Source of the DNA: Oscillospiraceae bacterium
GTDB lineage: Bacteria; Bacillota; Clostridia; Oscillospirales; Oscillospiraceae
Reading direction: 5' to 3'
NCBI GenBank assembly: GCA_009787625.1
Contig: WQSX01000001.1
Coordinates: forward strand, 124,001-188,000
Length of the DNA: 64,000 bases
Shown in pieces: positions 8,696 through 57,401 of the stretch. Each line of letters starts with the position of its first letter. Within the stretch, counting starts at the first letter, position 1. The notes under the pieces were generated by a model. The model saw nothing but the letters and a program-made list of their open reading frames with translations, did no database searches and had not been told where the DNA came from. The position numbers were made by a program, and so were the translations under genes.

Positions 8696-8872
8696 AAGAT
8701 ATCACCTTCTTTCTTAATTAGCAAAAAACGCCTATAAACTTAAATAAAGACGATTTTCACCGTTTATCATTTTATCACGATTTCAACAAATTACAATTGT
8801 TTAATATGTCTCAAAAATTATACAAATTAAGAGCAAAATTTCACATAATAGTCAACAGGTGATTATTATTCT

Positions 8873-8901
8873 TTGACATCATAATAACCATATGGTATCA
8901 T
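8873..8901 (+). promoter_or_regulatory. Sigma-A type promoter of the MFS transporter gene
   Basis: TTGACA (8873-8878), a 17-bp spacer and TATCAT (8896-8901) form a near-consensus housekeeping promoter about 33 bp before the MFS start codon. The rest of the 238-bp divergent gap is AT-rich and shows no other clear signal. Confidence 0.8.
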
Positions 8902-8933
8902 TCATGCTAACTTTATAAAGTAACGGAGAAATT

Positions 8934-10214
8934 ATGAGCTTAAGAGAAACACGAAAAGAACTGGACCTCGTCAGAACGATGCGCGAAGTAAAGGGAAATC
9001 CCAAACTCTGCCTTATAACGGAACCACTTTGGACAATCCCGTTTAGCCTGTACACGCCATTTATCTCAGTTTACATGGCGGCACTCCTCTTAACTGACAG
9101 TCAAATTGGACTTGTTGCATCAATATTTATGTTATTTAGTGCTATCATGGCACTCTTTAGCGGCGCAATAACAGATAAGCTCGGACGAAAGAAAACTACA
9201 TTTATCTTCGACACGCTTTCGTGGACAATACCTTGTTTGCTTTGGGCGTTTTCACAAAACTTCTGGTGGTTTGCTGTGGCTGCCGCATTTAATGGAATGA
9301 TGCAAATAACCACTGTTTCGTGGACGTGCCTGTTGGTCGAAGATGTGCAAAAAGGTTACATGGCAAAGGTATACAGTTTGCTGCACATGATATCACAGCT
9401 ATCAATAATGTTCCTGCCGATAGCGTTTATAATGGTAAGCAGGCTCTCCTTAATCCCCGCAATGCGAATACTCTTCATATTTTCAGCACTATCTATGACA
9501 ATAAAGTTCATAATACTATTTAAATTCGGCGATGAGACAGAAGTCGGCAAGACACGCATGGAAGAGACTAAAGGTATGTCGTTATGGCAGATTATGGGCG
9601 GTTACGGCGAAATCTTCAGGCGTATATTTGCTTCAAAAAGCATGGTTCTGTCACTGGTTATAACCACAATATTCAGCATACTCGGAATGGTCACAGCAAA
9701 CTTTTTTGGATTATATGTAACGGGAACCCTTATGATTCCGGAATATTTTCTAGCTATATTTCCCGTCATACGCGCAGTCGTAATAGCGGCATTTCTCATA
9801 TTCATACAGCCAAAACTCCAAAGATTTGGATTTAGAAACCCAATGCTGATAGGACTTATTCTCCATGCAACAGGAATGGCTATACTGATTGCGACCCCAT
9901 TATATGGTGCTATGCTTTCACTGATCATATATATATTAATTGATGCACTCGCATTCAGCCTAGTTGTGCCGCGCAGTGACTCGCTAACACAACTACTTAT
10001 CGAACCGAGTGAACGTGCTCGTATCAGAGGGCTTATGATGGTGATAGTGCTATCGCTCAGCATACCGTTTGGTTACATTTCGGGAGTGTTGTCGGATATG
10101 GATCGCCGCCTGCCGTTTGTCCTATGTATAGCGCTGCTCATAGTGACATTTATAGTTATAGCGTCGAATAAAAAAAGATTAGCAAAAGTTAGCGAACAAG
10201 AAAATATGGGGTGA
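8934..10214 (+). CDS. Major facilitator superfamily (MFS) transporter
   Basis: The 426-aa protein has about twelve hydrophobic segments. The MFS loop 2-3 signature (GAITDKLGRKKT, around residues 75-86) is present, and a second, weaker copy of that loop (SGVLSDMDRR) lies late in the protein. It is a secondary transporter of the cytoplasmic membrane; the substrate is unknown, with drug or sugar efflux both possible. Its own near-consensus promoter and GGAG ribosome-binding site precede ATG 8934. The gene is followed by a separate weak promoter for rsmE, so it is probably monocistronic. Confidence 0.85.
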   Translation: MSLRETRKELDLVRTMREVKGNPKLCLITEPLWTIPFSLYTPFISVYMAALLLTDSQIGLVASIFMLFSAIMALFSGAITDKLGRKKTTFIFDTLSWTIPCLLWAFSQNFWWFAVAAAFNGMMQITTVSWTCLLVEDVQKGYMAKVYSLLHMISQLSIMFLPIAFIMVSRLSLIPAMRILFIFSALSMTIKFIILFKFGDETEVGKTRMEETKGMSLWQIMGGYGEIFRRIFASKSMVLSLVITTIFSILGMVTANFFGLYVTGTLMIPEYFLAIFPVIRAVVIAAFLIFIQPKLQRFGFRNPMLIGLILHATGMAILIATPLYGAMLSLIIYILIDALAFSLVVPRSDSLTQLLIEPSERARIRGLMMVIVLSLSIPFGYISGVLSDMDRRLPFVLCIALLIVTFIVIASNKKRLAKVSEQENMG

Positions 10215-10227
10215 GAAGAGAAAACAA

Positions 10228-10256
10228 TTGCCTTTTTACTTTTTTTGGTGTATGAT
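10228..10256 (+). promoter_or_regulatory. Probable promoter for rsmE and downstream genes
   Basis: TTGCCT (10228-10233), a 17-bp spacer and TATGAT (10251-10256) lie about 47 bp before the rsmE start. The -35 box matches consensus at 4 of 6 positions and the -10 box at 5 of 6. Confidence 0.5.
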
Positions 10257-10302
10257 AAGGGGTGGTTTTTAGTGACCAAATTTCGGCGGGAGGCACAATA
10301 TC

Positions 10303-11049
10303 TTGATTCGCTTTTTTACAAGTCCGGAAAACATAAGAGAAACAAGTATTGAGCTCACTTCCGAGGACAGATTGCACCTACGTTCGCTCAGAATTCGTCC
10401 AAGCGAAGAGTTTATAGTGTGCGATGGAGCCGGAACGGATTATGTCTGCAAGTTAAAAAACGGCAAAAATGAAAATAAAGCTGACTTTGCAAGCACAGCA
10501 GTGATTCTAAGGCAAGAAAAAACACAGAGCGAGCCAACAACACACTGCACATTATACATAGCATATGCAAAAGGTGACAGGCTCGAATACGCAGTTCAAA
10601 AATCCGTAGAACTCGGTGTTACAGGTATAATTCTGTTCAAATCAAAACGATGCATCGCCACATTTGACAACACAAATAGAAAACTTGAGCGACTGCAAAA
10701 AATCGCACATGAAGCTGCAAAACAAAGTGGCAGGGGAATAGTTCCCATAGTGAAAAACGGCGGCGAATACGAAGAAATCCTTAACACAGCGGCGATTAGA
10801 GATGGATTTAGCATACTACTATATGAGGACGAAAAACATCTGCATATAAAGCAAGTGTTAGAAGCTAAACCCACATTTTCGCAAGTAGCCATTATTTCAG
10901 GTCCCGAAGGCGGATTTGAACTTGATGAAATAATGCAGGCACGAGAAAAAGGCATACACATAGCATCGCTCGGAGCCAGAATTTTACGCTCTGAAACAGC
11001 ACCGGTAGTCGCATTATCGGTACTTATGTTCCATACAGATAATCTGTAA
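10303..11049 (+). CDS. rsmE: 16S rRNA (uracil(1498)-N(3))-methyltransferase
   Basis: This 248-aa SPOUT-class methyltransferase modifies U1498 of 16S rRNA in the 30S subunit using S-adenosylmethionine. The N-terminal PUA-like part is followed by the trefoil-knot region, with the RsmE signatures ISGPEGGF and SLGARILRSETA near the C-terminus. The length is typical. TTG 10303 is the start, with GGGAGG 9 nt upstream. It is followed closely by a CheY-like gene, possibly co-transcribed. Confidence 0.93.
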   Translation: MIRFFTSPENIRETSIELTSEDRLHLRSLRIRPSEEFIVCDGAGTDYVCKLKNGKNENKADFASTAVILRQEKTQSEPTTHCTLYIAYAKGDRLEYAVQKSVELGVTGIILFKSKRCIATFDNTNRKLERLQKIAHEAAKQSGRGIVPIVKNGGEYEEILNTAAIRDGFSILLYEDEKHLHIKQVLEAKPTFSQVAIISGPEGGFELDEIMQAREKGIHIASLGARILRSETAPVVALSVLMFHTDNL

Positions 11050-11077
11050 TGAAGCTGAAAGGCGTGGTCATTATATA

Positions 11078-11440
11078 ATGAAGAGAGTACTAGTCGTTGA
11101 CGACTCGGCCTTTATGAGAAGAACTATGAAAAGTATCGTAGTCAGAAATGATTACGAAGTTGTCGGTGAAGGCACAAACGGGGTTGAGGCAGTCAGTTTA
11201 TATAAAAAATTAAGACCGGATATTGTAACACTTGATATAGTTATGAAGGATGTAGGTGGACTTGAAGCCTTAAAATCAATTATGAAAATAGACCCGAATG
11301 CAAACGTTATCATGGTGACATCAATGGGTCAAGATGTAATAGTGCGTGAGGCAATTGTTTCCGGTGCAAAAAACTTTATCCTAAAGCCATTCACAGAGCA
11401 ACAAGTAATGGCGGCCTTTGAAAAGTTAAAAGAAAAATAA
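11078..11440 (+). CDS. Stand-alone CheY-like response regulator receiver
   Basis: The 120-aa protein is a single receiver domain with no output domain. The acidic pocket D8-D9, phosphoacceptor D53, T81 and K103 are all in place, so it should be phosphorylated by a histidine kinase. Such stand-alone receivers act as CheY-type motor regulators or as relay proteins. No chemotaxis or kinase gene is present in the window, so the partner is unknown. It lies 28 bp after rsmE and 47 bp before the P-type ATPase. Confidence 0.9.
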   Translation: MKRVLVVDDSAFMRRTMKSIVVRNDYEVVGEGTNGVEAVSLYKKLRPDIVTLDIVMKDVGGLEALKSIMKIDPNANVIMVTSMGQDVIVREAIVSGAKNFILKPFTEQQVMAAFEKLKEK

Positions 11441-11487
11441 TAACTACCTATGTAATCGAAATTACCCTATTAAAGCGAGGTGCAACC

Positions 11488-13899
11488 GTGGCGACAAGGC
11501 AAGAGACTGTCAGATTAAATAGAGTGCTACCCAGAATCGAAGCTCCTGTCACAGTCGGATTAAGCGGACAGCAGGCACGTGAAAGACTCGAAAATGGCTA
11601 TGGGAACATGAAACCCGAGTCAGCCGAAAAGACTATAGCACAGATACTGCGAGGTAATATATTTACATATCTAAACCTACTGCTCACAACACTCGCTATA
11701 TGCCTCATGCTCGTAGGCTCTTTTGCACAGCTCACATTTCTCCCTGTAATAATGATAAACACAGTAATCGGTATCATACAGGAATTGCGTGCAAAACGCG
11801 CTCTGGCAAAGCTCACATTCATCACAGCACCAAATGCGACAGTCATAAGAGATGGTGTTGAAACAACCGTAAGACCGGAAGATGCAGTGCTCGATGATAT
11901 CGCAATGTTTGCAAAAGACCAACAGATATACGCCGATGCAGTGGTTTTGGCAGGTGAAGTTTCGGTAAATGAGGCCCTTGTCACCGGAGAATCAGATGAA
12001 ATAACTAAAAAACCCGGCGACACACTGCTGTCGGGCAGTTTTATTATATCCGGCGAGTGTGCCGCCCGTCTTGACAGAGTAGGCAGAGACTCATTTGTAG
12101 CACAGCTCACGCTGGAAGCAAAAAAGACAAAAGGAAAACTATCAGCCGGAATGGTTGCAACACTTAAGCGATTTGTGCAAATCATAGGTATCATTATGGT
12201 ACCCGTGGGAATAACAATGTTCGTCAGGCAAGTCATGCAAGAGCATATATACGTCACCACAGCCACAGAGACAACAGTAGGTGCGCTCGTTGGAATGGTA
12301 CCCGATGGGCTATATTTGCTTGTTTCGGTTGCACTCACAGTCAGTGTCCTGCGCCTTGCCAGAAGAAGAACTCTTGTGCAAGAACGAAACTGCATCGAAA
12401 CACTTGCAAGAGTAAACGTGCTCTGCGTCGACAAAACAGGCACAATAACAGAGAACAATATGGATGTAAAAGGCATTGCCCTGCTGAATGAAGACCGCTT
12501 TAGTGAGGAAGATGTTGTAAACATTTTAGCTGACTACTCCGGAAATATGTCAGATGAAAACGAGACAATGACAGCGATAAAATCATATATTAATATGCCT
12601 GCAAGAAGAAATGCGTCAAACATAATGCCATTTTCATCGGCAGTTAAATACGGCGGTGTGTCATTCAGTGATGGATCATCATATGTGCTTGGAGCGCCGG
12701 AGCGTATCTTGCAGTCAAAATACTACAAATATCAAAGCATAATCGAAGCGCACTCGGCAAGAGGGTACAGAGTGCTTTTACTTGCCATGTCGGGTAGTGG
12801 TATAGGAAACAAGCTGAGTCCGGAGTCTATAATGCCGCTTGCCTTGGTTCTTTTATCAAATAAAGTGAGAGCAGAAGCTCCCCCTACATTTGAGTTCTTC
12901 GCAAAACAAGGCGTTAAAATAATCGTTATAAGCGGCGATAACCCTGTTACAGTTTCACACATAGCCCTCGAAGCGGGAATAATCGGAGCAGAGAAATACA
13001 TAGACGCCGCGGAGCTGCAAACAGATCGTCAAATAAAAAAAGCGGTCAGTGAATATGTAGTGTTCGGCAGGGTAACACCCGACCAAAAGAGAAAACTCGT
13101 AAGGGCGTTAAAAAGAGCCGGCAATACCGTAGCTATGACAGGCGATGGTGTCAACGATGTTCTCGCGCTGAAAGACTCCGACTGCTCAATAGCCATGGCG
13201 TCAGGCAGTGAAGTTGCAAGCCAAGTCTCGGATATAGTTCTGCTGGACTCAGATTTTTCAGCAATGCCCCACGTAGTAATGGAAGGACGCAGGGTCATAA
13301 ACAATTTAGAGCGCAGTGCCGCACTATTTATAACAAAAAACATCTTTACACTGCTATTTGTGCTTGCAGTGACAATCCCGTTCGGAGCGCTGTTTCCGTT
13401 AAGACCGAACCAATTCACGCTGTTTAATGTCATGTTTATCGGTATACCGTCATTTGTCTTGGCTATGGAAGTAAACAAAAGCATAGTCAGAGGAAAATTC
13501 CTGATAAATGCTTTCAGGCACGCATTACCCGCAGGTCTCACAAGTTTTGTTGGTCTCGTGAGTATGTTTTATTTCAGCTCAAACTGGGACATGCCCATCT
13601 ACCAGGTACAAGCAGAAGCATCGACAGTATCACTGATTATAATAGGATTTGTGGGAATGTTAATGCTCATCAAGCTGTGTCTACCGTTTAATATACTGCG
13701 CATCGCACTTTGTATAGCCATGCTTATAGGTTTTGTCGGAGGAATAATTATACTCAGTGGCTTAGAAATAGACGGAGTAGCGGCACTTGCCCCACTATCA
13801 AGCAGCGGCATATGGCTGACCGTCTTGACCTGCCTGGCAATGGCACCCATATTTTTCGGGCTTACACTTGCATTTCGTAATATGGGGTTGCGTAAATAA
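11488..13899 (+). CDS. P-type cation-transporting ATPase, CtpE-like
   Basis: The 803-aa P-type ATPase has an actuator TGES at residues 166-169, the phosphorylated Asp at 315 in DKTGT, and the hinge TGDGVNDVLALK with GDGVND at 552-557. Membrane helices flank these domains and a C-terminal bundle follows. Heavy-metal CPx motifs and N-terminal metal-binding domains are absent. The overall layout and the ASGSEVASQVSDIVLLDSDF segment resemble the CtpE/PacL-like group, which is linked to Ca2+ uptake in mycobacteria. The transported ion is an inference. The start is GTG 11488 with GCGAGG upstream. Confidence 0.85.
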   Translation: MATRQETVRLNRVLPRIEAPVTVGLSGQQARERLENGYGNMKPESAEKTIAQILRGNIFTYLNLLLTTLAICLMLVGSFAQLTFLPVIMINTVIGIIQELRAKRALAKLTFITAPNATVIRDGVETTVRPEDAVLDDIAMFAKDQQIYADAVVLAGEVSVNEALVTGESDEITKKPGDTLLSGSFIISGECAARLDRVGRDSFVAQLTLEAKKTKGKLSAGMVATLKRFVQIIGIIMVPVGITMFVRQVMQEHIYVTTATETTVGALVGMVPDGLYLLVSVALTVSVLRLARRRTLVQERNCIETLARVNVLCVDKTGTITENNMDVKGIALLNEDRFSEEDVVNILADYSGNMSDENETMTAIKSYINMPARRNASNIMPFSSAVKYGGVSFSDGSSYVLGAPERILQSKYYKYQSIIEAHSARGYRVLLLAMSGSGIGNKLSPESIMPLALVLLSNKVRAEAPPTFEFFAKQGVKIIVISGDNPVTVSHIALEAGIIGAEKYIDAAELQTDRQIKKAVSEYVVFGRVTPDQKRKLVRALKRAGNTVAMTGDGVNDVLALKDSDCSIAMASGSEVASQVSDIVLLDSDFSAMPHVVMEGRRVINNLERSAALFITKNIFTLLFVLAVTIPFGALFPLRPNQFTLFNVMFIGIPSFVLAMEVNKSIVRGKFLINAFRHALPAGLTSFVGLVSMFYFSSNWDMPIYQVQAEASTVSLIIIGFVGMLMLIKLCLPFNILRIALCIAMLIGFVGGIIILSGLEIDGVAALAPLSSSGIWLTVLTCLAMAPIFFGLTLAFRNMGLRK

Positions 13900-13986: not shown

Positions 13987-15885
13987 ATGGAACTGATAAA
14001 TACAATACTCGGCACACCCCTAGGTTATATCATTTACTTTGCATATCAACTGACAGGAAGTTACTGGCTGTCGGTAGTTGTGTTTGCAATAATCGTGCGG
14101 GTTGTTGTGCTATTCCCCGTGAGCATATTGGCACATAAAAACTCCATACGTCTTTTGCAAATATCACCGAGATTAAATATAATCAGAAAAAGATATTCAG
14201 GCGACAAGGAACGCCTAAACGAAGAGCAACATGAGCTTTTCAAAAGTGAAAAGTACAACCCACTCGTGGGAGTGATCCCGCTGGTAGTTCAGTTAATCCT
14301 AATAATCGGCATAATGCAAGTAATGTTAAACCCAATGCGCCATATGCACGGGATAGCCGAGGACAGTATTAACTTCATTTTTATGGGGCTTGATTTTCGT
14401 GTGATACCGTCGATATTCAGCCCATCACCGGAACTAATAATGCTCCTACTGTCAGGCGGCTCTGCATTTTTGTTCTGTCTAACAACAAACGCACTAAGCC
14501 CCGGTGCGCTGAGCCAGAGCGACAAAACAAACAACGGCATGACAATATTCACAGTGGCGTTGTCGCTATACCTTGCACTGGTGTTGCCTGTGGGGGTAGC
14601 GTTCTACTGGACAACAAGCAATTTTGTGGCAATAGGCATGGTGCTTTTGCTAAATGTAATGTATAATCCCAAAAAACTGGCACCTGAGGCACTAGCCGCA
14701 ACTCAGGCAGAAAAGAAATCCCCCGAAGAACTCAAAAAGGAGCGCGAACTAAATAAAAAGCTCAAAGCGCGAGAAAAGCAAGATGCAGCAAAGTTCCGAG
14801 AAGTGAAAAAGGAACTAGTATTTTACGCAATAACAGGTGGTCAGTATAAATACTACAAAACAGTCATAGAGTATATACTGGAAAATTCAGAAACCACAAT
14901 TCACTACCTGACAAGCGACCCCGACGATAGTATTTTTGCTCAAGACAACCCACGACTAATCCCATACTACGCAGGGCAAAGAAAAACAATTTCGCTAATG
15001 CTGAAACTAGACGCAGACATGCTCGTAACAACAGTCCCCGACCTGCAAAGCTACCACATGAAGCGCTCCATAGTATGCGATGATATTGAATATGTGTATG
15101 TGTTTCATGCCGCAACAAGCACACACATGATTTACAGAGAAAAAGCCTTTGACCACTTTGATACTATTTTCTGTGTCGGGCCGCATCATGTAGGAGAACT
15201 CCGCAGGCGTGAAGAACTCGCCGGGCTGGAAAAAAGAAAGCTGATAAAAGCGGGCTACGATTTGTTTGACCAACTGCTGCTATCATATGTTCCGGAGGCA
15301 AAAAACGATAAACCGGTAATACTGATAGCTCCTTCATGGCATAGCGGTAACATTTTGGAGACATGTATTGAAGATGTTCTCGACGCACTAAAAAGACACG
15401 GCTATGAGATTATAGTAAGACCTCACCCGCAGTTTACAAAGCTTTTCCGAAAGCGTTTGGATGAACTGGAAGAGAAATATGCTGAAAACACAAAACAAGG
15501 TGAGATAATATTTGAACTCGACTTTGGAAAGAGCAGTTCAATTTTTGAGTCGGATCTACTCATAACAGACTGGTCGGCAATAGCATACGAGTTCACATAC
15601 AGTACTTCCAAACCCTGTGTCTACATCAACACCCCAATGAAAGTCATGAATCCGAATTGGAAAAAATACGGATTGGAACCAATGGACATAGCTCTCCGCG
15701 ATAAAATCGGAATATCGATTGATACTGAGAACATACAAACTCAGTTAAGTGACACAGTAAAAAAACTGTTAGATGAGAAAGAAACATACAAGGAACGAAT
15801 ACATGAGGCACTATCGGAGTACATTTACCATCCCGGCAGGAGTGCTGAAGCAGGTGGGAAGTATATAATCGAGAGGCTCAAATAG
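13987..15885 (+). CDS. YidC/Oxa1 membrane insertase domain fused to a CDP-glycerol glycerophosphotransferase-like domain
   Basis: One continuous 632-aa frame carries two domains. Residues about 1-235 match the short Gram-positive YidC/Oxa1 core: five hydrophobic segments and a groove arginine at R38 in the first helix. A charged, Lys/Glu-rich linker (about 236-280) follows. Residues about 280-632 match the CDP-glycerol:polyglycerophosphate glycerophosphotransferase family (TagB/TagF): APSWHSGN, RPHPQF and SDLLITDWSAIAYEF are its nucleotide- and acceptor-side motifs. That family transfers a CDP-linked phospho-group onto a teichoic acid-type acceptor at the membrane. The next three genes make and activate a phosphonate, so this enzyme may transfer that head group. 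It is probably not the housekeeping YidC. Confidence 0.85.
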   Translation: MELINTILGTPLGYIIYFAYQLTGSYWLSVVVFAIIVRVVVLFPVSILAHKNSIRLLQISPRLNIIRKRYSGDKERLNEEQHELFKSEKYNPLVGVIPLVVQLILIIGIMQVMLNPMRHMHGIAEDSINFIFMGLDFRVIPSIFSPSPELIMLLLSGGSAFLFCLTTNALSPGALSQSDKTNNGMTIFTVALSLYLALVLPVGVAFYWTTSNFVAIGMVLLLNVMYNPKKLAPEALAATQAEKKSPEELKKERELNKKLKAREKQDAAKFREVKKELVFYAITGGQYKYYKTVIEYILENSETTIHYLTSDPDDSIFAQDNPRLIPYYAGQRKTISLMLKLDADMLVTTVPDLQSYHMKRSIVCDDIEYVYVFHAATSTHMIYREKAFDHFDTIFCVGPHHVGELRRREELAGLEKRKLIKAGYDLFDQLLLSYVPEAKNDKPVILIAPSWHSGNILETCIEDVLDALKRHGYEIIVRPHPQFTKLFRKRLDELEEKYAENTKQGEIIFELDFGKSSSIFESDLLITDWSAIAYEFTYSTSKPCVYINTPMKVMNPNWKKYGLEPMDIALRDKIGISIDTENIQTQLSDTVKKLLDEKETYKERIHEALSEYIYHPGRSAEAGGKYIIERLK

Positions 15886-15929
15886 TAAAAAAATTAGGAT
15901 TTTTAACATTATTAGGAGGAAACAAAAAA

Positions 15930-17345
15930 ATGCAATTACAAGAGAGAATAGACCTGAAAAAAGCTGATAGAAATGAGTTGTACTGCCTTGAGCCACCATT
16001 TCCTCGCACTAATTTTTTAATTGAAACATCAAATGCATGTAACCACAAATGCATTTTCTGTGCATACCAAAAAATGACACGTAAAGTCAACATGATTAAC
16101 CCGGAGACAGTCACGAGAGTGCTACAGCAAGCATATGACTTAGGCACACGTGAAGTTGGATTATATGCAACAGGCGAACCTTTTCTGGTAAAAGAGCTAC
16201 CGGATTATGTTGCAAAAGCGAAAGAAATCGGATATGAGTATGTCTATCTGACCTCAAATGGCGCCCCTGCGACACCTGAGCGGATACGTGCAGTTGTTGA
16301 TGCAGGAGTTGACAGCATTAAGTTTTCAATAAATGCACCGGAGCGTGAACTATATGAGTTCATCCACGGATATGACGATTTTGACCTCGTTATGGAAAAC
16401 CTCAAGTACCTGAATCAATACAGGCAGGAGAGCGGTAAAAAATACAAAATCTTCGTAACCGGAATACTCACGCGCTTCACCGAATATATGAAAGACGAGT
16501 TTCAACGCGTATTCGGCAATCTCGCAGATGAAATAGTGTTCAAAAATGTATATAATCAAGGCGGATATATGCATGAAATCGAGGGTCTGCTCAAATGCTA
16601 CTCCGATGACGAATCGTTTAGGCGTTGCAATTTGCCGTTTGACGCCATCTGCGTGACATGCGAGGGTTATCTCTCTGTGGAAAATGCTGATTATGAAAAT
16701 ATGCTGGTGGTTGCAGACTTAAACAAAGTCAATCTCAAAGAAGGTTGGTATGGTGAAAACATGAAGAGAGTTCGCCAAGCATTTATTGATGATAAGCTGG
16801 ACGGTCTGGTATGCGATGGTTGCGTACACCACGAAATACGCCCCTCGTCACCCGTTATGCCTGAACTTGCCGCAAGGCAGTCTCTGGATTTTTCAGATTC
16901 TGTTGTAGCCGACAGAATTAATAAATTCAACCCACCAAAACTGGTATACGTGCCGATGGTAGCAGATATACTTCACCCCGGTCATATCAACATAATCAAA
17001 GAAGCAGGTAAATACGGCAATGTGATGGTTGGACTTTACTCGGATGAAGCGGTTAAAACTTACAAAAAACCACCGACCATGAGCTATGAAATGCGTAAGA
17101 CAATACTTGAAAATGTCAAAGGCGTGAGCTATGTTGTGAAACAAAACGTAAAAGATTATGAGCCAAACTTACGTAAATTCAAACCGGACTTCATGGTGCA
17201 TGGCACAGATTGGCGCACAGGACCACTTGCAGAGGTCAGAGCAAGGGCGATTGCTACCATGGGAGAATGGGGTGGCGAAGTAATAGAGCCTGAATATACA
17301 GCAGGCGTTTCATCTACGGCAATTAAACAGAAAATGGAGAACTGA
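15930..17345 (+). CDS. Radical SAM/SPASM-like enzyme fused to a cytidylyltransferase domain
   Basis: The 471-aa fusion has a radical SAM domain with the 4Fe-4S motif CX3CX2C at C37, C41 and C44. A cysteine-rich SPASM/twitch-like region around residues 230-305 follows (CNLPFDAICVTC, CDGCVHH). A C-terminal cytidylyltransferase-like domain spans about residues 335-471, with HPGH at 349-352 and GVSST near the end. The second half is closely similar to the N-terminal half of the next protein. The start ATG 15930 follows an AGGAGG site. A CTP-dependent activation step combined with radical chemistry on a phosphonate is inferred from the neighbours. The radical reaction is unknown. Confidence 0.85.
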   Translation: MQLQERIDLKKADRNELYCLEPPFPRTNFLIETSNACNHKCIFCAYQKMTRKVNMINPETVTRVLQQAYDLGTREVGLYATGEPFLVKELPDYVAKAKEIGYEYVYLTSNGAPATPERIRAVVDAGVDSIKFSINAPERELYEFIHGYDDFDLVMENLKYLNQYRQESGKKYKIFVTGILTRFTEYMKDEFQRVFGNLADEIVFKNVYNQGGYMHEIEGLLKCYSDDESFRRCNLPFDAICVTCEGYLSVENADYENMLVVADLNKVNLKEGWYGENMKRVRQAFIDDKLDGLVCDGCVHHEIRPSSPVMPELAARQSLDFSDSVVADRINKFNPPKLVYVPMVADILHPGHINIIKEAGKYGNVMVGLYSDEAVKTYKKPPTMSYEMRKTILENVKGVSYVVKQNVKDYEPNLRKFKPDFMVHGTDWRTGPLAEVRARAIATMGEWGGEVIEPEYTAGVSSTAIKQKMEN

Positions 17346-17348
17346 GTA

Positions 17349-18650
17349 ATGGGAGAAAAAACAGCATATGTTGCTATGGCAACAGACCTGTATCATTCCG
17401 GACACTTAAATATCATAAATGAGGCGGCGAAGCACGGCAGTGTGATTGTCGGAGTTCTGACTGATGAAGCCGTTGCAACCTATAAGCGCCCACCACTGCT
17501 TGACACTGCTGAACGTGTCAGAATTGCGTCTGGATTTAAGCATGTAGAGCGCGTGGTAGTGCAAGAGCATATGGACTACACAGACACATTACATGAAATC
17601 CGCCCCGATTATGTCGTGCACGGCGATGACTGGCGCACGGGGCATATGCAAATAATCAGAGAGCGGGTCATATCGGTGCTCGCCGAATGGGGAGGTGAAT
17701 TAATTGAGATACCGTACACAAAGGGAATCTCCACTGATGGACTCTCCAGACAACTCTCTGCGGCGTTTTCAACACCTGATGTACGCCTTGCAAAGCTTCG
17801 AAAACTTCTCAAGCTTAAGCCATATATAAGAGCTATAGATGTATCAAACGGACTCACGGGAATTATAGCCGAGAACGTGCGTGTTATGGACGAAGCGAGC
17901 CTGACAGTCAAAGAGTTTGATGCAATGTGGGTGTCCAGCCTTTGCGATTCCTCATTTAAAGGGAAGCCGGACATAGAACTCGTTGACCTGACAAGCCGAA
18001 TCAGCACTATAGATGAAATTATGGAAGTGACGACAAAACCCATCATTTTAGACGGCGATACAGGCGGTAAAATCGAGCATTTTTCATATCATGTGAAAAC
18101 GTTAGAGCGTATTGGGGTATCAGCGGTTATAATCGAGGACAAAACAGGATTAAAGCAAAACTCCCTGTTTGGAACCGAGGTGGAGCAGACATTGGACGAC
18201 CCGGAGCATTTTGGAGCTAAGATTGCGGCGGGTAAGCAGGCACAAGCCACACGTGAGTTCATGATAATCGCTCGCTTGGAGAGCTTGATTGCCGGAAAAG
18301 ATACTGACGATGCCATGAAAAGGGCAAAAATATACATCGAAGCAGGTGCTGATGCCATCATGATTCACAGCAAGGAAAAATCCGGCGACGATATATTTGA
18401 GTTTATGGATAAATTCAGAGCATATTCAGCAGATATCCCCGTTGTAGCTGTTCCGACAACCTACAATCAATTCACGGAAGAAGAGCTCCACAAAAGGGGC
18501 GCAAATATAATTATCCATGCAAACTATCTGCTACGCAGTGCATATCCTGCAATGCTGAAAACAGCCGAAAGCATTCTAACTCACAATCGCAGTGAAGAAG
18601 CCTCCGACGAATACTGCATGTCTATAAAAGACGTACTGACATTTATATAG
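17349..18650 (+). CDS. aepX: Cytidylyltransferase-phosphoenolpyruvate mutase fusion
   Basis: The 433-aa protein joins an N-terminal cytidylyltransferase-like domain (HSGH at 16-19, GISTD near residue 134) to a PEP mutase of the isocitrate lyase superfamily (about 150-433). PEP mutase hallmarks are the DGDTGG Mg2+-site loop and the gating-loop motif EDKTGLKQNS beginning at E263. The enzyme converts phosphoenolpyruvate to phosphonopyruvate, the committed step of C-P bond formation. The fused nucleotidyltransferase would activate a phosphonate as a CMP ester, as is known in several bacterial phosphonate clusters. It starts 3 bp after the previous stop, so the genes are translationally coupled. 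Confidence 0.92.
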   Translation: MGEKTAYVAMATDLYHSGHLNIINEAAKHGSVIVGVLTDEAVATYKRPPLLDTAERVRIASGFKHVERVVVQEHMDYTDTLHEIRPDYVVHGDDWRTGHMQIIRERVISVLAEWGGELIEIPYTKGISTDGLSRQLSAAFSTPDVRLAKLRKLLKLKPYIRAIDVSNGLTGIIAENVRVMDEASLTVKEFDAMWVSSLCDSSFKGKPDIELVDLTSRISTIDEIMEVTTKPIILDGDTGGKIEHFSYHVKTLERIGVSAVIIEDKTGLKQNSLFGTEVEQTLDDPEHFGAKIAAGKQAQATREFMIIARLESLIAGKDTDDAMKRAKIYIEAGADAIMIHSKEKSGDDIFEFMDKFRAYSADIPVVAVPTTYNQFTEEELHKRGANIIIHANYLLRSAYPAMLKTAESILTHNRSEEASDEYCMSIKDVLTFI

Positions 18651-18663
18651 AAGGTAGGGAGCC

Positions 18664-19815
18664 ATGCAAGCAACTAAATTTCTCGACATTCTTCAGTCAC
18701 TAAGTGGTGGTCTCTACACAGGTGTGCCGGACTCACTGCTCAGCCCATTTATTGATGCAGTTATGGAAAGGCATGGCATATCGGAAAAGCACATAGTAGC
18801 GGCAAACGAAGGTGCGGCTGTGGGGATTGCCGCAGGGCACTTTTTGGCTACATCAAAGCCCGCAGTGGTTTACATGCAAAACAGCGGAATAGGAAATGCC
18901 GTGAACCCAATTTGCTCGCTCTTACATGAAAAAGTCTATTCAATTCCCGCCATTTTTGTAATAGGCTGGCGTGGCGAACCCGGCGTAAAAGACGAGCCAC
19001 AGCACGTGTTTCAAGGAGAAATCACGCTCTCGTTACTTGATAACTTGGAGATACCATATATAGTGATATCAGGCGATGATGATTTGGAAAAGACGGTAAA
19101 TGAATTCAGCGAGCATCTGAAAAATGGACGTTCCGTAGCATTTGTCATAAAAAAAGGTGCTCTGCAAAATGACAAGAAATATGAGTACAGCTCGGGCGCA
19201 AAACTCTCACGTGAGGAAGCACTTGGCGCAATACTTTCAGTAGATACCACCGATAGCCACTCCGTAAACAGCCCAATCTACGTCTGTACAACAGGAAAGC
19301 TCTCTCGCGAAGTCTATGAAATCCGAGAACAGCAAGGCGCAGGGCATGGTTCTGACTTTCTGACAGTAGGCTCAATGGGTCATAGCCTAATGATTGCCTA
19401 TGGCATAGCGTTAGAAAAACCAAAGAGACAAGTCTTTTGTCTGGACGGAGACGGTGCAGTGCTAATGCATATGGGAAGTCTTGCAACCATCGGCGTACAC
19501 AAACCAAAAAACCTAATCCATATCGTGATAAACAATGGAGCACACGAAACAGTTGGCGGATTGCCGACTGTAGGAGAAAATCTGGACTTTTCCAAAGTTG
19601 CGGAGTCTCTGGGATACAAAAAAGCAAGTCGTGCCACCGAAGTAACAAAGCTTGTCAAAGTGATAAAAGACACAAAAAGCACAGAAGGCCCGTTTTTAAT
19701 AGAAGTCATATGCAACCTATCATCTCGCAGTGACTTGGGTAGACCAACAACAACCCCGGCACAAAACAGAGACGAGTTGATGGAAAATTTATTGGGCTCC
19801 AGGCTCAAAGACTAA
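18664..19815 (+). CDS. aepY: Phosphonopyruvate decarboxylase
   Basis: This 383-aa thiamine-diphosphate enzyme decarboxylates phosphonopyruvate to phosphonoacetaldehyde, which pulls the unfavourable PEP mutase reaction forward. The N-terminal PYR domain carries the catalytic Glu region (AANEGAAVGIAAGH). The C-terminal PP domain carries the TPP/Mg2+ motif GDG at 262-264 through NN at 290-291. GGTAGGGAG precedes ATG 18664, 13 bp after the previous gene. No aminotransferase or alcohol dehydrogenase follows, so the fate of phosphonoacetaldehyde is not encoded here. Its last 11 bases overlap the convergent DMT gene. Confidence 0.93.
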   Translation: MQATKFLDILQSLSGGLYTGVPDSLLSPFIDAVMERHGISEKHIVAANEGAAVGIAAGHFLATSKPAVVYMQNSGIGNAVNPICSLLHEKVYSIPAIFVIGWRGEPGVKDEPQHVFQGEITLSLLDNLEIPYIVISGDDDLEKTVNEFSEHLKNGRSVAFVIKKGALQNDKKYEYSSGAKLSREEALGAILSVDTTDSHSVNSPIYVCTTGKLSREVYEIREQQGAGHGSDFLTVGSMGHSLMIAYGIALEKPKRQVFCLDGDGAVLMHMGSLATIGVHKPKNLIHIVINNGAHETVGGLPTVGENLDFSKVAESLGYKKASRATEVTKLVKVIKDTKSTEGPFLIEVICNLSSRSDLGRPTTTPAQNRDELMENLLGSRLKD

Positions 19816-20149
19816 ACACAACAATGCCCACAATGATTAGCACGATGCCTAAATACTGCGATAGCCGTAGTTTCTCATTGAGAAAAAACAAGCTCAGCAC
19901 CGGAATGAATATGAATGCCGCCGATTCTAAAATCGGAATAAGAGACAGCGGAATGTACCGCAACATGTAAAAATTAACAATAGCGGCGACACCAAAAATG
20001 AAATACGCAAGCATAACTCGCCAGTTTAGATACTCGGCGAGTCTATTTTTCCATGTGATTTGTGCCGCCTTCTTGAGCAAAAGCTGAGAGCATGCCGAGA
20101 TGAAAACCATAGATAAGACAATAGCCATATGAATCAAATAATCATCCAT
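19805..20149 (-). CDS. Small DMT/EamA-type membrane protein, subunit B of a pair
   Basis: The protein of about 114 aa has four hydrophobic segments, half the size of an EamA transporter and similar to ArnE/ArnF or small multidrug resistance subunits. ATG 20149 follows a GGTGAT site; a GTG at 20158 is an alternative. It overlaps the upstream half-transporter gene by 8-17 bp, so the two products probably form an asymmetric heterodimer. ArnEF-like pairs flip lipid-linked sugars, so a role in moving a lipid-linked head-group donor fits the context but is not proven. The 3' end overlaps aepY on the other strand. Confidence 0.7.
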   Translation of the reverse strand: MDDYLIHMAIVLSMVFISACSQLLLKKAAQITWKNRLAEYLNWRVMLAYFIFGVAAIVNFYMLRYIPLSLIPILESAAFIFIPVLSLFFLNEKLRLSQYLGIVLIIVGIVVFSL

Positions 20150-20510
20150 GCTTATCACCGACCTTTTTGTTGTTTCTCACTATGAGAACTATTCCGGCAA
20201 TAATAATAAGTGCCCCGATTATCATGTTTAAACTTATGGTCTCGCCAAAAAGCACAGCACCAAAAAACATGCCGTAGATGATTGTAACGGCACGGTTTGC
20301 GTGAGCTATGGTAAGCGGAAGACGTTTTAGGACTTGTTGCCAAACTAATGCAAAAATTCCAAAGAGCATAAACGCAAGCCCGTACAGCCCTATAGCTTGA
20401 ATTGAAACAAGAGGAAAAGTGCCGGCAAAGTTAGCCACAACCAAACTTACCGAAAACAGAAGATAGCAGAGATATATGATCCCATAGGTTTTTATTTTAC
20501 TTTTTTCCAA
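20142..20510 (-). CDS. Small DMT/EamA-type membrane protein, subunit A of a pair
   Basis: The 122-aa protein has four hydrophobic segments and a Gly-rich last helix (IGALIIIAGIVLIV), typical of half-size DMT transporters. It begins at TTG 20510. It precedes and overlaps its partner gene, which points to translational coupling and a heterodimer. It runs toward aepY, downstream of the ABC exporter genes on the minus strand. The substrate is unknown. An undecaprenyl-linked intermediate or an amine are both possible. Confidence 0.7.
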   Translation of the reverse strand: MEKSKIKTYGIIYLCYLLFSVSLVVANFAGTFPLVSIQAIGLYGLAFMLFGIFALVWQQVLKRLPLTIAHANRAVTIIYGMFFGAVLFGETISLNMIIGALIIIAGIVLIVRNNKKVGDKHG

Positions 20511-20539
20511 GGAAACACCAACCCTTTTATGTCTGAGTC

Positions 20540-21271
20540 TTATACATCTCCATAGGCGGCAGCGACTTCATCCACATCTCCGATGCAAGCTATGTTGCCC
20601 TTTTCGAGTAATACTGCCCGTGTACACATTGATTTAATGAGATCTATGCTATGCGAGACCAAGAGAACAGTGGCACCACCCGTCATTAATTTGTTCATAC
20701 GCTCTATGCATTTTGCTTGAAACTTATAGTCCCCGACTCCAAGCACCTCATCTACAATCAAAATGTCAGGATCAACACTGGTAGCCACTGCAAAACCTAA
20801 GCGTGCGTTCATACCCGTTGAAAAGTTTTTTAGTGCGACGTCTTCAAAATCTCGAAGCTCCGCAAAATCAATTATTTCATTGAATTTCTTCTCCATGAAA
20901 CTAGGGGGATATCCATACATGGCACCATTCATATATATATTGTCACGAGCAGAGAACTCAGGGTCAAAACCGGCACCAAGCTCCAATAGTGGAGAAATGT
21001 TGCCATTGACGGTTATGCTGCCAAGGGTCGGCTTAAAAACCCCTGCAATAATTTTTAGCAAAGTTGATTTGCCGGCGCCATTAAATCCAATGATTCCAAA
21101 GACCTCACCGCGCTTGACGTCAAAGCTGACATCCTTAAGTGCCCAAAAATCTTCATAAAAGGCCTGCCCCTTAATGATTTTTATGACATGCTCTTTGAGA
21201 CTCGTGATTTTGTCCTTACTGAGACTAAATTTCATTGAAACATTTTCGATATTGATAGCAATATTTTCCAC
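20540..21271 (-). CDS. tagH: Polysaccharide/teichoic acid ABC exporter, ATP-binding subunit (TagH/Wzt-like)
   Basis: The protein of about 243 aa has Walker A GFNGAGKS, the ABC signature FSTGMNARLGFA, Walker B ILIVDEVLGVGD and the switch His (LLVSHS). This subfamily energises export of lipid-linked teichoic acids or O-antigens. GTG 21271 is preferred because GGGAG (21281-21285) lies 9 nt upstream; the ATG at 21289 has no ribosome-binding site. No extended C-terminal substrate-binding domain of the Wzt type is present, so it resembles the short forms. Its permease is the next gene upstream. Confidence 0.88.
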   Translation of the reverse strand: MENIAINIENVSMKFSLSKDKITSLKEHVIKIIKGQAFYEDFWALKDVSFDVKRGEVFGIIGFNGAGKSTLLKIIAGVFKPTLGSITVNGNISPLLELGAGFDPEFSARDNIYMNGAMYGYPPSFMEKKFNEIIDFAELRDFEDVALKNFSTGMNARLGFAVATSVDPDILIVDEVLGVGDYKFQAKCIERMNKLMTGGATVLLVSHSIDLIKSMCTRAVLLEKGNIACIGDVDEVAAAYGDV

Positions 21272-21316
21272 AGTATGGCTCTCCCACATTAATAATTAGA
21301 ATCTGTATACCCCTCA

Positions 21317-21333
21317 GGCGAACACAGTTCGCC
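21317..21333. repeat. Short GC-rich inverted repeat between exporter genes
   Basis: A 7-bp stem (GGCGAAC with GTTCGCC) and a 3-nt loop sit in a GC-rich patch inside an otherwise AT-rich 90-bp gap. Similar GGGCGAAC-type short hairpins occur as scattered intergenic repeats in many bacteria. No second copy was seen in this window. Confidence 0.35.
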
Positions 21334-21361
21334 CCTACAGAGGCATTACGAATATTTTAGA

Positions 21362-22342
21362 CTACATATTATGAATGTATTTATCTTGCTTTGACATAAA
21401 CATATATGTGCCCAGGCAGAGTGATGCAACGGCAAATCCAATGCAAACCATGTTAGCCCAAAGGTTCGGAACAACTCCAAACATCGCAACATCTCTAAAA
21501 TACTCAACAAAATGAACCATTGGGTTTAGCCAATAGAATGGGATAATCCAGTCGGGCAAGATGTCGACAGGATACATTATCGGGGTGAGGAAAAAAAGCA
21601 GCTGCATCAGTACACCCCATAAATGTGTTACATCACGATAGAACACAGCGAACGATGAAATAAACATCGAAACACCAAGGGTGAATACGAAAGTGTAGAA
21701 GATTGGGATAGGCATTAAAATTAATGTCCACTGTAGCTGAACACCTGAAAAAAGCAGTATAATCAAAAATGCTATAAAAGTGAAAGCCATATTGACAAAA
21801 GCTGAAAGGAGTTTAGTCAAAGGAAACACATATTTTGGAACATATATTTTTTTAATTATAGCCTCATTGCTAATCAGTGAGGTCATGGATTGCGTTGTCC
21901 CTTCAGAAAAAAAGTTAAATATGAGTTGCCCACTGAAGAGGTAGACTGGGAAATGCTCGACATCCCACCTGAACAGGTGAGAAAAAACAGCAGCCATAAC
22001 AAGCATCATGAGAAGAGGATTGAGCCATGACCAAATAACTCCAAATATGCTCTTTCGATATCTGGAGATAAAATCACGCTTTATCATAAGTCCCATGTAA
22101 TATTTGTAGCGCTGAAAAGCAAAAAGTTGTCCCATGACGAATTTGCGCTTAAACACAAAAAGTAGGACAAACGCTGTGGCCACAGCTGCAGTACCGGCCA
22201 AAAACAAAAGCCTTGGAGCAAACAAAAAGAAATTATCACCTCGATTGCCAACTATGCTCTCGGGCAAGAAAATAAGCGAGATAAAATAAATAATTGTTAA
22301 AGCAAAAGTAATCCCGGCCAGGCGCTTTTTTGTGAGTTCCAT
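21362..22342 (-). CDS. tagG: Polysaccharide/teichoic acid ABC exporter, permease subunit (TagG/Wzm-like, ABC-2 family)
   Basis: The 326-aa ABC-2 permease has two extra N-terminal hydrophobic segments (about residues 8-65) before the usual six-helix export core. The amphipathic entry motif (YYMGLMIKRDFISRYRKSIFG) and the PLLM/VNMAFTFIAF segments are typical of TagG/Wzm. Together with the ATPase encoded downstream it should export a lipid-linked polymer across the membrane. The two extra helices are not usual for TagG. The ribosome-binding site is weak (GAAAGGAA about 15 nt before ATG 22342). Confidence 0.85.
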   Translation of the reverse strand: MELTKKRLAGITFALTIIYFISLIFLPESIVGNRGDNFFLFAPRLLFLAGTAAVATAFVLLFVFKRKFVMGQLFAFQRYKYYMGLMIKRDFISRYRKSIFGVIWSWLNPLLMMLVMAAVFSHLFRWDVEHFPVYLFSGQLIFNFFSEGTTQSMTSLISNEAIIKKIYVPKYVFPLTKLLSAFVNMAFTFIAFLIILLFSGVQLQWTLILMPIPIFYTFVFTLGVSMFISSFAVFYRDVTHLWGVLMQLLFFLTPIMYPVDILPDWIIPFYWLNPMVHFVEYFRDVAMFGVVPNLWANMVCIGFAVASLCLGTYMFMSKQDKYIHNM

Positions 22343-22381
22343 AAATAAATGACTATTCCTTTCAAACCCTAAACTACAAAC

Positions 22382-22582
22382 TCAATTTGTGTCATCATCA
22401 AGCATATCGACAGTATCATCGTCGGTTATAGTGTGTTTAATATCAGATGTTGGTCCAGACTTATTTTTAGAAAACAAATTGCTGATTTTCTTTCTCAAAG
22501 AAAAGATAACTCCCCCGCCAACGGCTGCAATCACAACAATAATCTGAACAAGCATTCCTCCAAAACCAGGATCTAAATACAT
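22382..22582 (-). CDS. Small conserved membrane protein of unknown function
   Basis: The 66-aa protein has a strong ribosome-binding site (AAGGGGTGAT before ATG 22582). One transmembrane helix spans about residues 9-28, a basic stretch follows (RKKISNLFSKNK), and the tail is acidic (DDDTVDMLDDDT). The opening MYLDPGFGGML resembles a group of small proteins seen beside polysaccharide genes, but I know of no assigned function. It is the first gene of the minus-strand exporter operon, 40 bp before the permease, which suggests a role in polymer export or assembly. Confidence 0.65.
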   Translation of the reverse strand: MYLDPGFGGMLVQIIVVIAAVGGGVIFSLRKKISNLFSKNKSGPTSDIKHTITDDDTVDMLDDDTN

Positions 22583-22723: not shown

Positions 22724-24568
22724 ATGGTCATTTTAATGAATTTGGTTAGGAAATATGCAAGGTTCACTGCGATTTTCCTCGTAGTGTGTGTGGCAATATC
22801 TCTTGTAGTGACTGAATCAGTTTCGGCTAATACAAATATCAGGAGAACTATAAGAGCAGGTTTAAACTGGGGTGACACAGCAGTATCAACAACCAACCTG
22901 CAAAACAATCCCGGAAGTGGCTTCGAGTGGGGGACATACAACTCTTCTACAGACCACTTCACATCATTTGGTTCTACATACGTAGGAAACGTCAATGTAG
23001 CAGTGGGTGGCGAAAGCCAAGTAGTTATCAACAGAGCTGATACAGGCGAAGTCTTATTCACCTTTACACAAAACGGCACAGCAGAACTATTTGGAGTGAG
23101 ACCACTTGGTGCAAACCCATCTACACGATACAGAAACAGTAGTCCCAGATTTTCGGCAAACAGAAACTATACGTTCTTTGGTGGATTCAGATTTGAAAGG
23201 CGGGGTAGTTCGCTTATAGTTGTCAATATAGTCGATATTGAAGATTATGTCAAAGGCGTCGTGCCATATGAAATGAGCCCAAGCTGGCACATTGAAGCTC
23301 TCAGAGCTCAGGCAATTACCGCACGTTCGTTTGCAATGTTCAGAATGCTAAATCCCACACCTAAAGCGGTAAATAACCGATTTGATTTATGTGTTGAGGC
23401 TTGCTGTCAGGTATATTGGGGCAATCGCAACGCTACGGCGAGAACTGACCAAGCTATCACAAGCACCGCAAACTTAATAGTGACACACAACGGTTCAATA
23501 GCGGAAACACTTTACTCATCATCACATGGTGGTGGTTCTGAAAATAATGAAAACGTATTTCTCGGACCTCCGAGACCATATCTGCGCGGAGTGATTGACA
23601 CCTATGAGGAAGATGTTAATATTCCTAACTATAACTGGACAGTAACGGTTTCTCAATCAACGCTCACATCGCGTGTTCGTTTAACACACTCAAATGCAGG
23701 AACCATACACTGGGTTCAACCGGAATTTACGCCAACAGGAAATGTGCGCTCTGTCTTAGTATACGACAACAATAGCAGAGAATTCAGATTTACAGGACGT
23801 GCAGCACTTCAAAGACTCTTTGGCGGCTCAACCGTTATGCGATCACAACGCTTTACAATTGACAATGCAGGAACAGACGGCTGGGTAGATGTCCGCGGTA
23901 GCAACGTCGTTCTCAGAGGGCGAGGCTGGGGGCACAGCATCGGCTTGAGCCAGTGGGGCGCACAGTCTATGGCGAGTGTACGCGGCAGAACTGCAGATCA
24001 AATAATACATCACTTCTACACAGGAGTCCAAATTACGAATTTTGAAACAGGTTTGATTACAATATTGCCCTCAATACCACCGATTAGTGATGCGGAACAA
24101 CCAGGGCAGTCAGAGTCACCACAATTTCCCGGTCGAAGCGGCTGGGTGCAAGAGGGTGGAAACTGGTTCTTCGTTCGTAGTGGCGGCACAGTAGCGACAG
24201 GTTGGCTGCAAGACGGAGGAGTTTGGTACTACTTTAACGAAGGTGGCATAATGCAGACGGGCTGGATAAACAACACCGGTAGTTGGTATTATCTGCGGTC
24301 AAGCGGTGCAATGGCAACAGGCTGGGTGCTGACAGGCGGGCAATGGTTCTTTCTGCATTCAAGCGGCGCAATGGCAACAGGTTGGATTTTTGACGGCAGA
24401 AACTGGTATTATCTGCGATCTAACGGTGCAATGGCAGTCGGCTGGGTAGAAACCGGCGGACAATGGTATTTCATGCGTCCAAGCGGCGAAATGGTAACAG
24501 GAAGATTCACTGCCGACGGAGTAAGACATAGATTTGCCAATGACGGCAGATGGCTCGGCAGGGCGTAG
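22724..24568 (+). CDS. SpoIID/LytB-domain secreted protein with choline-binding-type repeats
   Basis: The 614-aa protein has a signal peptide, a SpoIID/LytB domain (core near residues 170-450, with EDYVKGVVPYEMSPSWH and ALRAQAITARSFA) and a tail from residue 473 onward. SpoIID proteins are lytic transglycosylases acting on peptidoglycan. The tail has six full 20-residue repeats of the form GW-x-(G)-x-WYY-L-x-S-GAMATGW, plus a degenerate seventh; this is the CW/choline-binding module that anchors proteins to phosphocholine on teichoic acids. ATG 22736 is an alternative start. It lies beside phosphonate-activation and TagGH-like genes, so its ligand may be the head group they make. Confidence 0.88.
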   Translation: MVILMNLVRKYARFTAIFLVVCVAISLVVTESVSANTNIRRTIRAGLNWGDTAVSTTNLQNNPGSGFEWGTYNSSTDHFTSFGSTYVGNVNVAVGGESQVVINRADTGEVLFTFTQNGTAELFGVRPLGANPSTRYRNSSPRFSANRNYTFFGGFRFERRGSSLIVVNIVDIEDYVKGVVPYEMSPSWHIEALRAQAITARSFAMFRMLNPTPKAVNNRFDLCVEACCQVYWGNRNATARTDQAITSTANLIVTHNGSIAETLYSSSHGGGSENNENVFLGPPRPYLRGVIDTYEEDVNIPNYNWTVTVSQSTLTSRVRLTHSNAGTIHWVQPEFTPTGNVRSVLVYDNNSREFRFTGRAALQRLFGGSTVMRSQRFTIDNAGTDGWVDVRGSNVVLRGRGWGHSIGLSQWGAQSMASVRGRTADQIIHHFYTGVQITNFETGLITILPSIPPISDAEQPGQSESPQFPGRSGWVQEGGNWFFVRSGGTVATGWLQDGGVWYYFNEGGIMQTGWINNTGSWYYLRSSGAMATGWVLTGGQWFFLHSSGAMATGWIFDGRNWYYLRSNGAMAVGWVETGGQWYFMRPSGEMVTGRFTADGVRHRFANDGRWLGRA

Positions 24569-51595: not shown

Positions 51596-51603
51596 GTAAA
51601 AGA

Positions 51604-53654: not shown

Positions 53655-53680
53655 CACAAACATTTATGGAGGTCTAGGTT

Positions 53681-54503: not shown

Positions 54504-54576
54504 AAAGCAGTAATTATTATTCTATGGCACTCAAAGAGTGTCGATGAGTGATGAAAGTTTCGAGGGGTATTATTTC

Positions 54577-57390: not shown

Positions 57391-57401
57391 AAGATTAGAA
57401 G

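Follow-up and report, generated by a model that had tools for sequence, protein, structure and literature searches.

A tight operon of four plus-strand genes (positions 13987-19815, with intergenic gaps of 44, 3 and 13 bp) lies within a 64,000-nucleotide stretch of an Oscillospiraceae bacterium genome (assembly GCA_009787625.1, contig WQSX01000001.1, positions 124,001 to 188,000; hereafter, the window). The operon encodes a YidC-glycerophosphotransferase fusion (YidC-Glyphos_transf), a radical S-adenosylmethionine (rSAM) enzyme fused to a cytidylyltransferase (rSAM-CyT), a cytidylyltransferase-phosphoenolpyruvate (PEP) mutase fusion (CyT-Ppm), and a phosphonopyruvate decarboxylase (Ppd). On balance, we favor the view that this is a phosphonyl-tailoring operon in which the rSAM enzyme replaces the usual phosphonoacetaldehyde enzyme, with the product activated through cytidine monophosphate (CMP) and transferred onto a surface polymer. 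No recognized phosphonoacetaldehyde-consuming enzyme is encoded in the cluster, a point that an earlier reading made from the sequence alone had missed, and rSAM-CyT occupies that slot. We examined 85 loci, dropped 11 that lack Ppm, and kept 74 loci with 75 Ppm genes, 32 of which have an rSAM family member within 6 kb. A 2-aminoethylphosphonate transaminase (AEPT) or iron alcohol dehydrogenase (Fe-ADH) lies within 6 kb of Ppm in 3 of these 32 rSAM-positive rows vs 35 of the 43 rSAM-negative rows (Fisher p 2.3e-10). The operon is of a known general kind, while the enzyme at its early branch point appears undescribed.

The operon and its predicted pathway

The gene content and order described in the sequence-only reading are present as open reading frames with Pfam or NCBIfam matches (Table 1). 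PEP mutase and Ppd both score above their curated cut-offs, which upholds the claim that the locus makes a phosphonate. In the pathway that we propose, the PEP mutase half of CyT-Ppm would convert PEP to phosphonopyruvate and Ppd would convert phosphonopyruvate to phosphonoacetaldehyde, both steps being established chemistry of these families. The rSAM half would then turn phosphonoacetaldehyde or its CMP ester into another phosphonate, standing in for the usual transaminase or Fe-ADH. Close homology suggests that the Fom1-type CyT domains would yield the CMP-phosphonate, and YidC-Glyphos_transf, anchored in the membrane through its YidC half, may use its GT-B half to pass the phosphonyl group on to a surface polymer. 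In relatives, this transfer would presumably fall to LicD or to other Glyphos_transf proteins. To our knowledge, the biosynthetic steps otherwise known at phosphonoacetaldehyde are transamination and reduction.

Sequence and structure comparisons give further detail on rSAM-CyT. Residues C37, C41, C44, C223, C233, C295 and C298 are invariant in all 20 aligned sequences, which include 19 relatives that are 61-72% identical to the window protein, and both the CX3CX2C motif and the auxiliary-cluster cysteine motif are kept in 30/30 scored family members. This pattern fits a putative twitch-type enzyme with one auxiliary cluster. A SPASM domain scores over the cut-off in one relative (L096); Pfam reports none for the window protein, on which PF04055 and PF01467 are the only matches and no B12-binding family is found. 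Fold comparison of the rSAM half returns near-tied scores for DesII, viperin with CTP, SuiB, MoaA, BlsE and BtrN, and structure therefore does not reveal which reaction it performs. For both CyT domains, the best-matching solved structure is the Fom1 cytidylyltransferase (139.7 bits against structure 5x3d for the CyT-Ppm domain), and the rSAM-linked CyT fits best the complex of Fom1 with CMP-linked 2-hydroxyethylphosphonate (HEP-CMP). The earlier proposal of activation as a CMP ester agrees with these matches. We conclude that rSAM-CyT most likely takes over the transaminase/Fe-ADH step and activates the product as a CMP ester.

Parts of this arrangement are familiar. A survey of 1485 PEP mutases found 23.6% of them joined to PF01467, the family of the Fom1 CyT (PMC6697681), and in the fosfomycin pathway HEP-CMP is the product of Fom1, Fom2 and FomC and is then methylated by the B12 radical SAM enzyme Fom3 (PMC8158854). 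Both the CyT-Ppm fusion and the use of a radical SAM enzyme alongside CMP activation therefore have precedents. The sequence-only reading knew of no pathway with this set of fusions; as a claim of novelty this goes too far, since CyT-Ppm is common and published. For rSAM-CyT and YidC-Glyphos_transf, searches of open-licence PubMed Central papers turned up no description.

Like the operon, the Streptomyces fosfomycin pathway combines a CyT-PEP mutase fusion, Ppd, a CMP-activated phosphonate and a radical SAM enzyme, and its Fom1 cytidylyltransferase is the closest to both CyT domains here. The operon differs in that it has no linked Fe-ADH, that its rSAM enzyme is of a non-B12 type, has a twitch-like auxiliary cluster site and is fused to its own CyT, and that it has a transferase and a polymer setting, whereas fosfomycin is a soluble antibiotic. 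A second comparable system, Pnt phosphonyl tailoring (PntC; Rice et al., 2019), is alike in Ppm, Ppd, cytidylyl activation and a predicted LicD-like transfer to a cell-surface glycan (PMC6697681). Unlike that system, the window has neither AEPT nor a PF12804 PntC within 6 kb of Ppm, has a second PF01467 CyT that is fused to rSAM, and encodes a YidC-TagF-like transferase.

The rSAM-CyT family and the phosphonoacetaldehyde step

A scan of named genomes returned 56 relatives, with a close family (>55% identity) in 31 loci (L085-L114 and L116) that, with the window and genome G500 (L147), make up 33 close-family loci. Ppm lies within 6 kb in 32 of these (the exception, L088, is an 8.2-kb contig), and Ppd lies within 6 kb in 31 of these 32 clusters. 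Gene order differs between loci and the other neighbors vary, yet rSAM, CyT-Ppm and Ppd remain grouped. Because the same set occurs close together in many genomes, the grouping is not due to chance. The carriers span several bacterial phyla and are labelled Clostridiales, Lachnospiraceae, Oscillospiraceae, Phascolarctobacterium, Agathobaculum, Synergistaceae, Bacteroidaceae, Gastranaerophilales, Desulfovibrio and others; of the 31 named records, 17 point to an animal or the gut in their titles (six to a gut site, eleven to an animal, Red_deer or Lapin), and the rest show no legible source. Six loci have an APS-kinase-like gene within 6 kb of Ppm (L091, L105, L111, L046, L147 and L167; identified by Pfam for L111 and by BLAST for the other five), and in three of them it is directly upstream of the cassette (L091:77-601, L105:5822-6343 and L111:9461-9994).

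The contrast in transaminase and Fe-ADH genes persists among loci with at least 3 kb of context on both sides (1/20 vs 25/30, p 2.9e-8), and PF12804 nucleotidyltransferases show the same pattern (8/32 rSAM-positive vs 36/43 rSAM-negative). Eight rSAM-negative rows have neither a transaminase nor an Fe-ADH (L050, L055, L056, L057, L156, L157, L166 and L169), three of them (L050, L166 and L169) close to the end of their stretch. Searches of whole genomes point the same way. In the window genome (95% complete, 5.5% contamination), none of seven matches to the transaminase PhnW (TIGR03301) exceeds the cut-off. PhnW matches occur at E<=0.001 in all 36 genomes searched and exceed the cut-off in two: G693, the only one among 32 rSAM-family genomes, where the gene is on a contig other than that of the cassette, and G113, where it is within an rSAM-free cluster. 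The best match below the cut-off scores 208 bits.

Several points weigh against a simple replacement. Three rSAM clusters (L099, L100 and L110), all from Synergistota, also carry an Fe-ADH, and a fourth from the same phylum (L098) has an Fe-ADH fragment at a contig end that the count threshold missed; rSAM-CyT is thus not a strict substitute. No FomC-type Fe-ADH is present in the window cluster, but the window genome has three unlinked Fe-ADHs, and unlinked or other reductases may act in rSAM genomes. The rSAM-positive and rSAM-negative sets were collected by different searches, rSAM-negative loci supplied the seeds for the profiles of Fe-ADH and AEPT, and, since the named genomes are mostly metagenome-assembled, absences may be gaps. 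Only six tree-independent pairs could be formed (averages of 3.4 opposite, 0.3 same and 2.2 tied; median p 0.25); they trend with the contrast and are too few for significance.

Some of these points are what would be expected if an unlinked enzyme reduced phosphonoacetaldehyde to 2-hydroxyethylphosphonate or aminated it, CyT made the CMP ester, and rSAM then decorated the CMP-phosphonate, as an added step that replaces nothing. Such Fom3-like tailoring, which we consider unlikely though it is the best of the alternatives, draws on the action of the B12 radical SAM enzyme Fom3 on HEP-CMP (PMC8158854) and on the fit of the rSAM-linked CyT to the HEP-CMP complex. It also draws on the presence of DesII and CTP-bound viperin among the top rSAM structure matches, tied as these are with many others, and on the Synergistota clusters and the unlinked Fe-ADHs. 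Those three Fe-ADHs, however, are just 20-30% identical to six cluster Fe-ADHs, 29 of the 32 rSAM clusters have no counted Fe-ADH or AEPT alongside, a search with the L044 Fe-ADH at E<=1e-15 matches nothing in 7 of the 32 rSAM-family genomes, and Pfam finds on rSAM-CyT no B12-binding family of the kind that marks Fom3 as a class B radical SAM methylase.

Replacement of the phosphonoacetaldehyde enzyme finds a parallel in other fusions. Some rSAM-free phosphonate clusters encode Fe-ADH-nucleotidyltransferase fusions (L040:12527-14212 and L148:2268-5861, the latter a 1197-aa protein with a weak LicD match), and a 968-aa protein (L149:1693-4599) has profile matches to Fe-ADH, nucleotidyltransferase and LicD. 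By their predicted domains, these fusions link a phosphonoacetaldehyde enzyme to CMP activation and transfer, and rSAM-CyT looks, by analogy, like the Fe-ADH-nucleotidyltransferase arrangement with a different first enzyme. The rSAM-linked CyTs and a stand-alone CyT from L039 form one clade (34 rows, SH-aLRT 100). The L039 cluster (6881-13511) encodes CyT-Ppm, an HMGL-like enzyme, a three-domain thiamine pyrophosphate enzyme, Fe-ADH, the stand-alone rSAM-type CyT and Ppd, and resembles a longer phosphonate pathway.

On a tree of Ppm (74 rows), the rSAM label is scattered, with 10 changes, at least six of them forced by well-supported branches. A single rSAM clade on this tree was rejected (p-AU 6.8e-47). 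The closest relative of the window Ppm is that of L150 (82% identity), whose cluster holds an Fe-ADH; the L150 contig starts 316 bp upstream of Ppm, and a search of its genome (G437) with rSAM-CyT at E<=1e-20 gave a CyT match and no rSAM-CyT. Given the scatter of the label and this nearest relative, the rSAM module seems to have been repeatedly exchanged. Tentatively, we extend this to a new branch-point enzyme: rSAM-CyT might convert phosphonoacetaldehyde or CMP-phosphonoacetaldehyde, by an oxygen-free radical reaction, into a phosphonate undescribed on cell surfaces (for example, phosphonoacetate by oxidation or methylphosphonate by carbon-carbon cleavage), and the rSAM-CyT/CyT-Ppm/Ppd module might have been repeatedly assembled or swapped in surface-polymer loci of several phyla.

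The YidC-Glyphos_transf fusion and the proposed transfer step

The C-terminal half of YidC-Glyphos_transf resembles TagF/CDP-glycerol glycerophosphotransferases (PF04464) in its GT-B fold, seen in a low-confidence model, and in a profile score above the Pfam cut-off. The likeness is distant: the profile match is weak and partial, identity to TagF is 20-21% in the fold comparison, an N-terminal YidC domain is added, and the donor here is not established as CDP-glycerol. The RPHP and TDWS motifs of this half are invariant in the four sequences aligned. Judged by open reading frame, the fusion occurs in 17 of 394 genomes of the order, and both domains are present in the 14 of the 17 that were checked. 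It adjoins the rSAM clusters of the window, L085, L087 and L089, where gene orders differ, as well as the rSAM-free phosphonate clusters L044 and L154. The window also contains (48734-59456) two ~950-aa ILEI-domain proteins, each followed by a relative of the large membrane protein that partners YidC-Glyphos_transf in L085/L089.

A second copy in the window genome (L007:8750-10648, minus strand) belongs to a Lic-type choline locus, 6-7 kb from both choline genes: a winged helix-turn-helix (HTH)-LicC-LicA fusion (L194:10569-12362, plus strand) at ~7 kb and a BCCT transporter (L007:1360-2883, plus strand) at 6 kb. Lic phosphocholine decoration of teichoic acids follows the same logic as the pathway proposed here, with the difference that the donor in the operon contains a C-P bond formed de novo, starting from PEP, and the choline-linked paralogue fits a surface-transfer role for YidC-Glyphos_transf. 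Three further loci with the fusion (L189, L191 and L192) have a nucleotidyltransferase and no Ppm seen nearby; in L189 and L191 the nucleotidyltransferase has a predicted HTH and a binding-protein ABC transporter is present. These loci may serve in salvage of choline or phosphonate.

The transfer step has its own points against it. The fusion adjoins only 4 of the 32 rSAM clusters, so that the linkage predicted by the sequence-only reading extends to rSAM-CyT, CyT-Ppm and Ppd and seldom to this gene, and 9 of the 17 genomes with the fusion have no Fom1-type CyT match. LicD or Glyphos_transf genes lie within 6 kb in 16/32 rSAM clusters, no more frequently than in rSAM-free clusters (21/43); these counts agree with a CDP/CMP-dependent transferase nearby, as the same reading envisaged.

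It is conceivable, if rather improbable, that YidC-Glyphos_transf comes from a separate polymer pathway for choline or glycerol phosphate, that its place in the operon is local, and that the phosphonate is attached by, for example, an unlinked LicD. The nine genomes without Fom1-type CyT, the copy near choline genes and two LicD genes elsewhere in the window genome would accord with this. Against it stand the recurrence of the fusion beside six phosphonate clusters, two of them rSAM-free, the enrichment of Fom1-type CyT in fusion genomes (8/17 vs 19/377 others, p 2.7e-6), and the lack of any LicD match in the genomes of L085, L086, L087 and L089. Least likely is that rSAM modifies an acceptor sugar or nucleotide sugar, with the CyT fusion merely bringing both activities together: CyT-less rSAM relatives (L038, L118 and L119) do occur in surface-glycan loci that also encode nucleotidyltransferases, DegT aminotransferases or sugar dehydratases, but the close family keeps to within 6 kb of Ppm in all but one locus while its other neighbors differ, and CyT is fused in 22 of 30 scored proteins.

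Neighboring genes and significance

Downstream of the operon, on the opposite strand, lie a pair of half-size membrane proteins and a TagH-like ATPase with an ABC2 permease (Table 1). The latter two are a predicted polymer exporter, which the proposed pathway does not require. Of the surveyed loci, only the window and one other have a TagG homologue at most 6 kb from Ppm, and only the window has the EamA pair at that distance; conservation does not support the operon membership that had been suggested for either. A SpoIID-domain protein with choline-binding repeats (22724-24568, plus strand) adjoins the TagGH-like genes, consistent with choline on the envelope.

Table 1. Genes and domains of the operon and its neighbors (window coordinates; curated cut-offs in brackets).
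Feature	Position	Strand	Details
YidC-Glyphos_transf (TagF-like GT-B) fusion	13987-15885	+	632 aa; PF02096 93.2 bits, PF04464 31.1 bits (22.1)
YidC/Oxa1-like membrane domain	14062-14652	+	aa 26-222; PF02096
Glyphos_transf/TagF-like domain	14815-15882	+	aa 277-632; PF04464, fold comparison
Radical SAM-cytidylyltransferase fusion (rSAM-CyT)	15930-17345	+	471 aa; PF04055 76.8 bits, PF01467 54.1 bits
Radical SAM domain, twitch/SPASM-like C-terminus	15930-16904	+	invariant cysteines in 20-row alignment
Fom1-type cytidylyltransferase domain of rSAM-CyT	16932-17342	+	motifs HPGH, HGxDWR, YTxxxSS
Cytidylyltransferase-PEP mutase fusion (CyT-Ppm), Fom1-like	17349-18650	+	433 aa; PF01467 54.9 bits, TIGR02320 361 bits (319.6)
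Fom1-type cytidylyltransferase domain of CyT-Ppm	17349-17768	+	Pfam and structure match
PEP mutase domain	17796-18644	+	TIGR02320; EDKx5NS motif
Phosphonopyruvate decarboxylase (Ppd)	18664-19815	+	383 aa; TIGR03297 452 bits (312.5)
Pair of half-size EamA/ArnE-F-like membrane proteins	19805-20510	-	Pfam/NCBIfam; neighbors only, not conserved with operon
TagH-like ATPase	20540-21289	-	Pfam/NCBIfam
ABC2 permease (TagGH-like exporter)	21362-22342	-	Pfam/NCBIfam

Early branch points set which phosphonates a cell can produce. If a radical enzyme does act at phosphonoacetaldehyde in several phyla, surface phosphonate chemistry would be misassigned by surveys based on transaminase, Fe-ADH or PntC. Speculatively, if the product were methylphosphonate, a precursor of methane would be formed by an anaerobic route. 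The YidC-TagF-like fusion, which occurs near both choline genes and phosphonate genes, offers a candidate that can be tested for the transfer step in Pnt tailoring.

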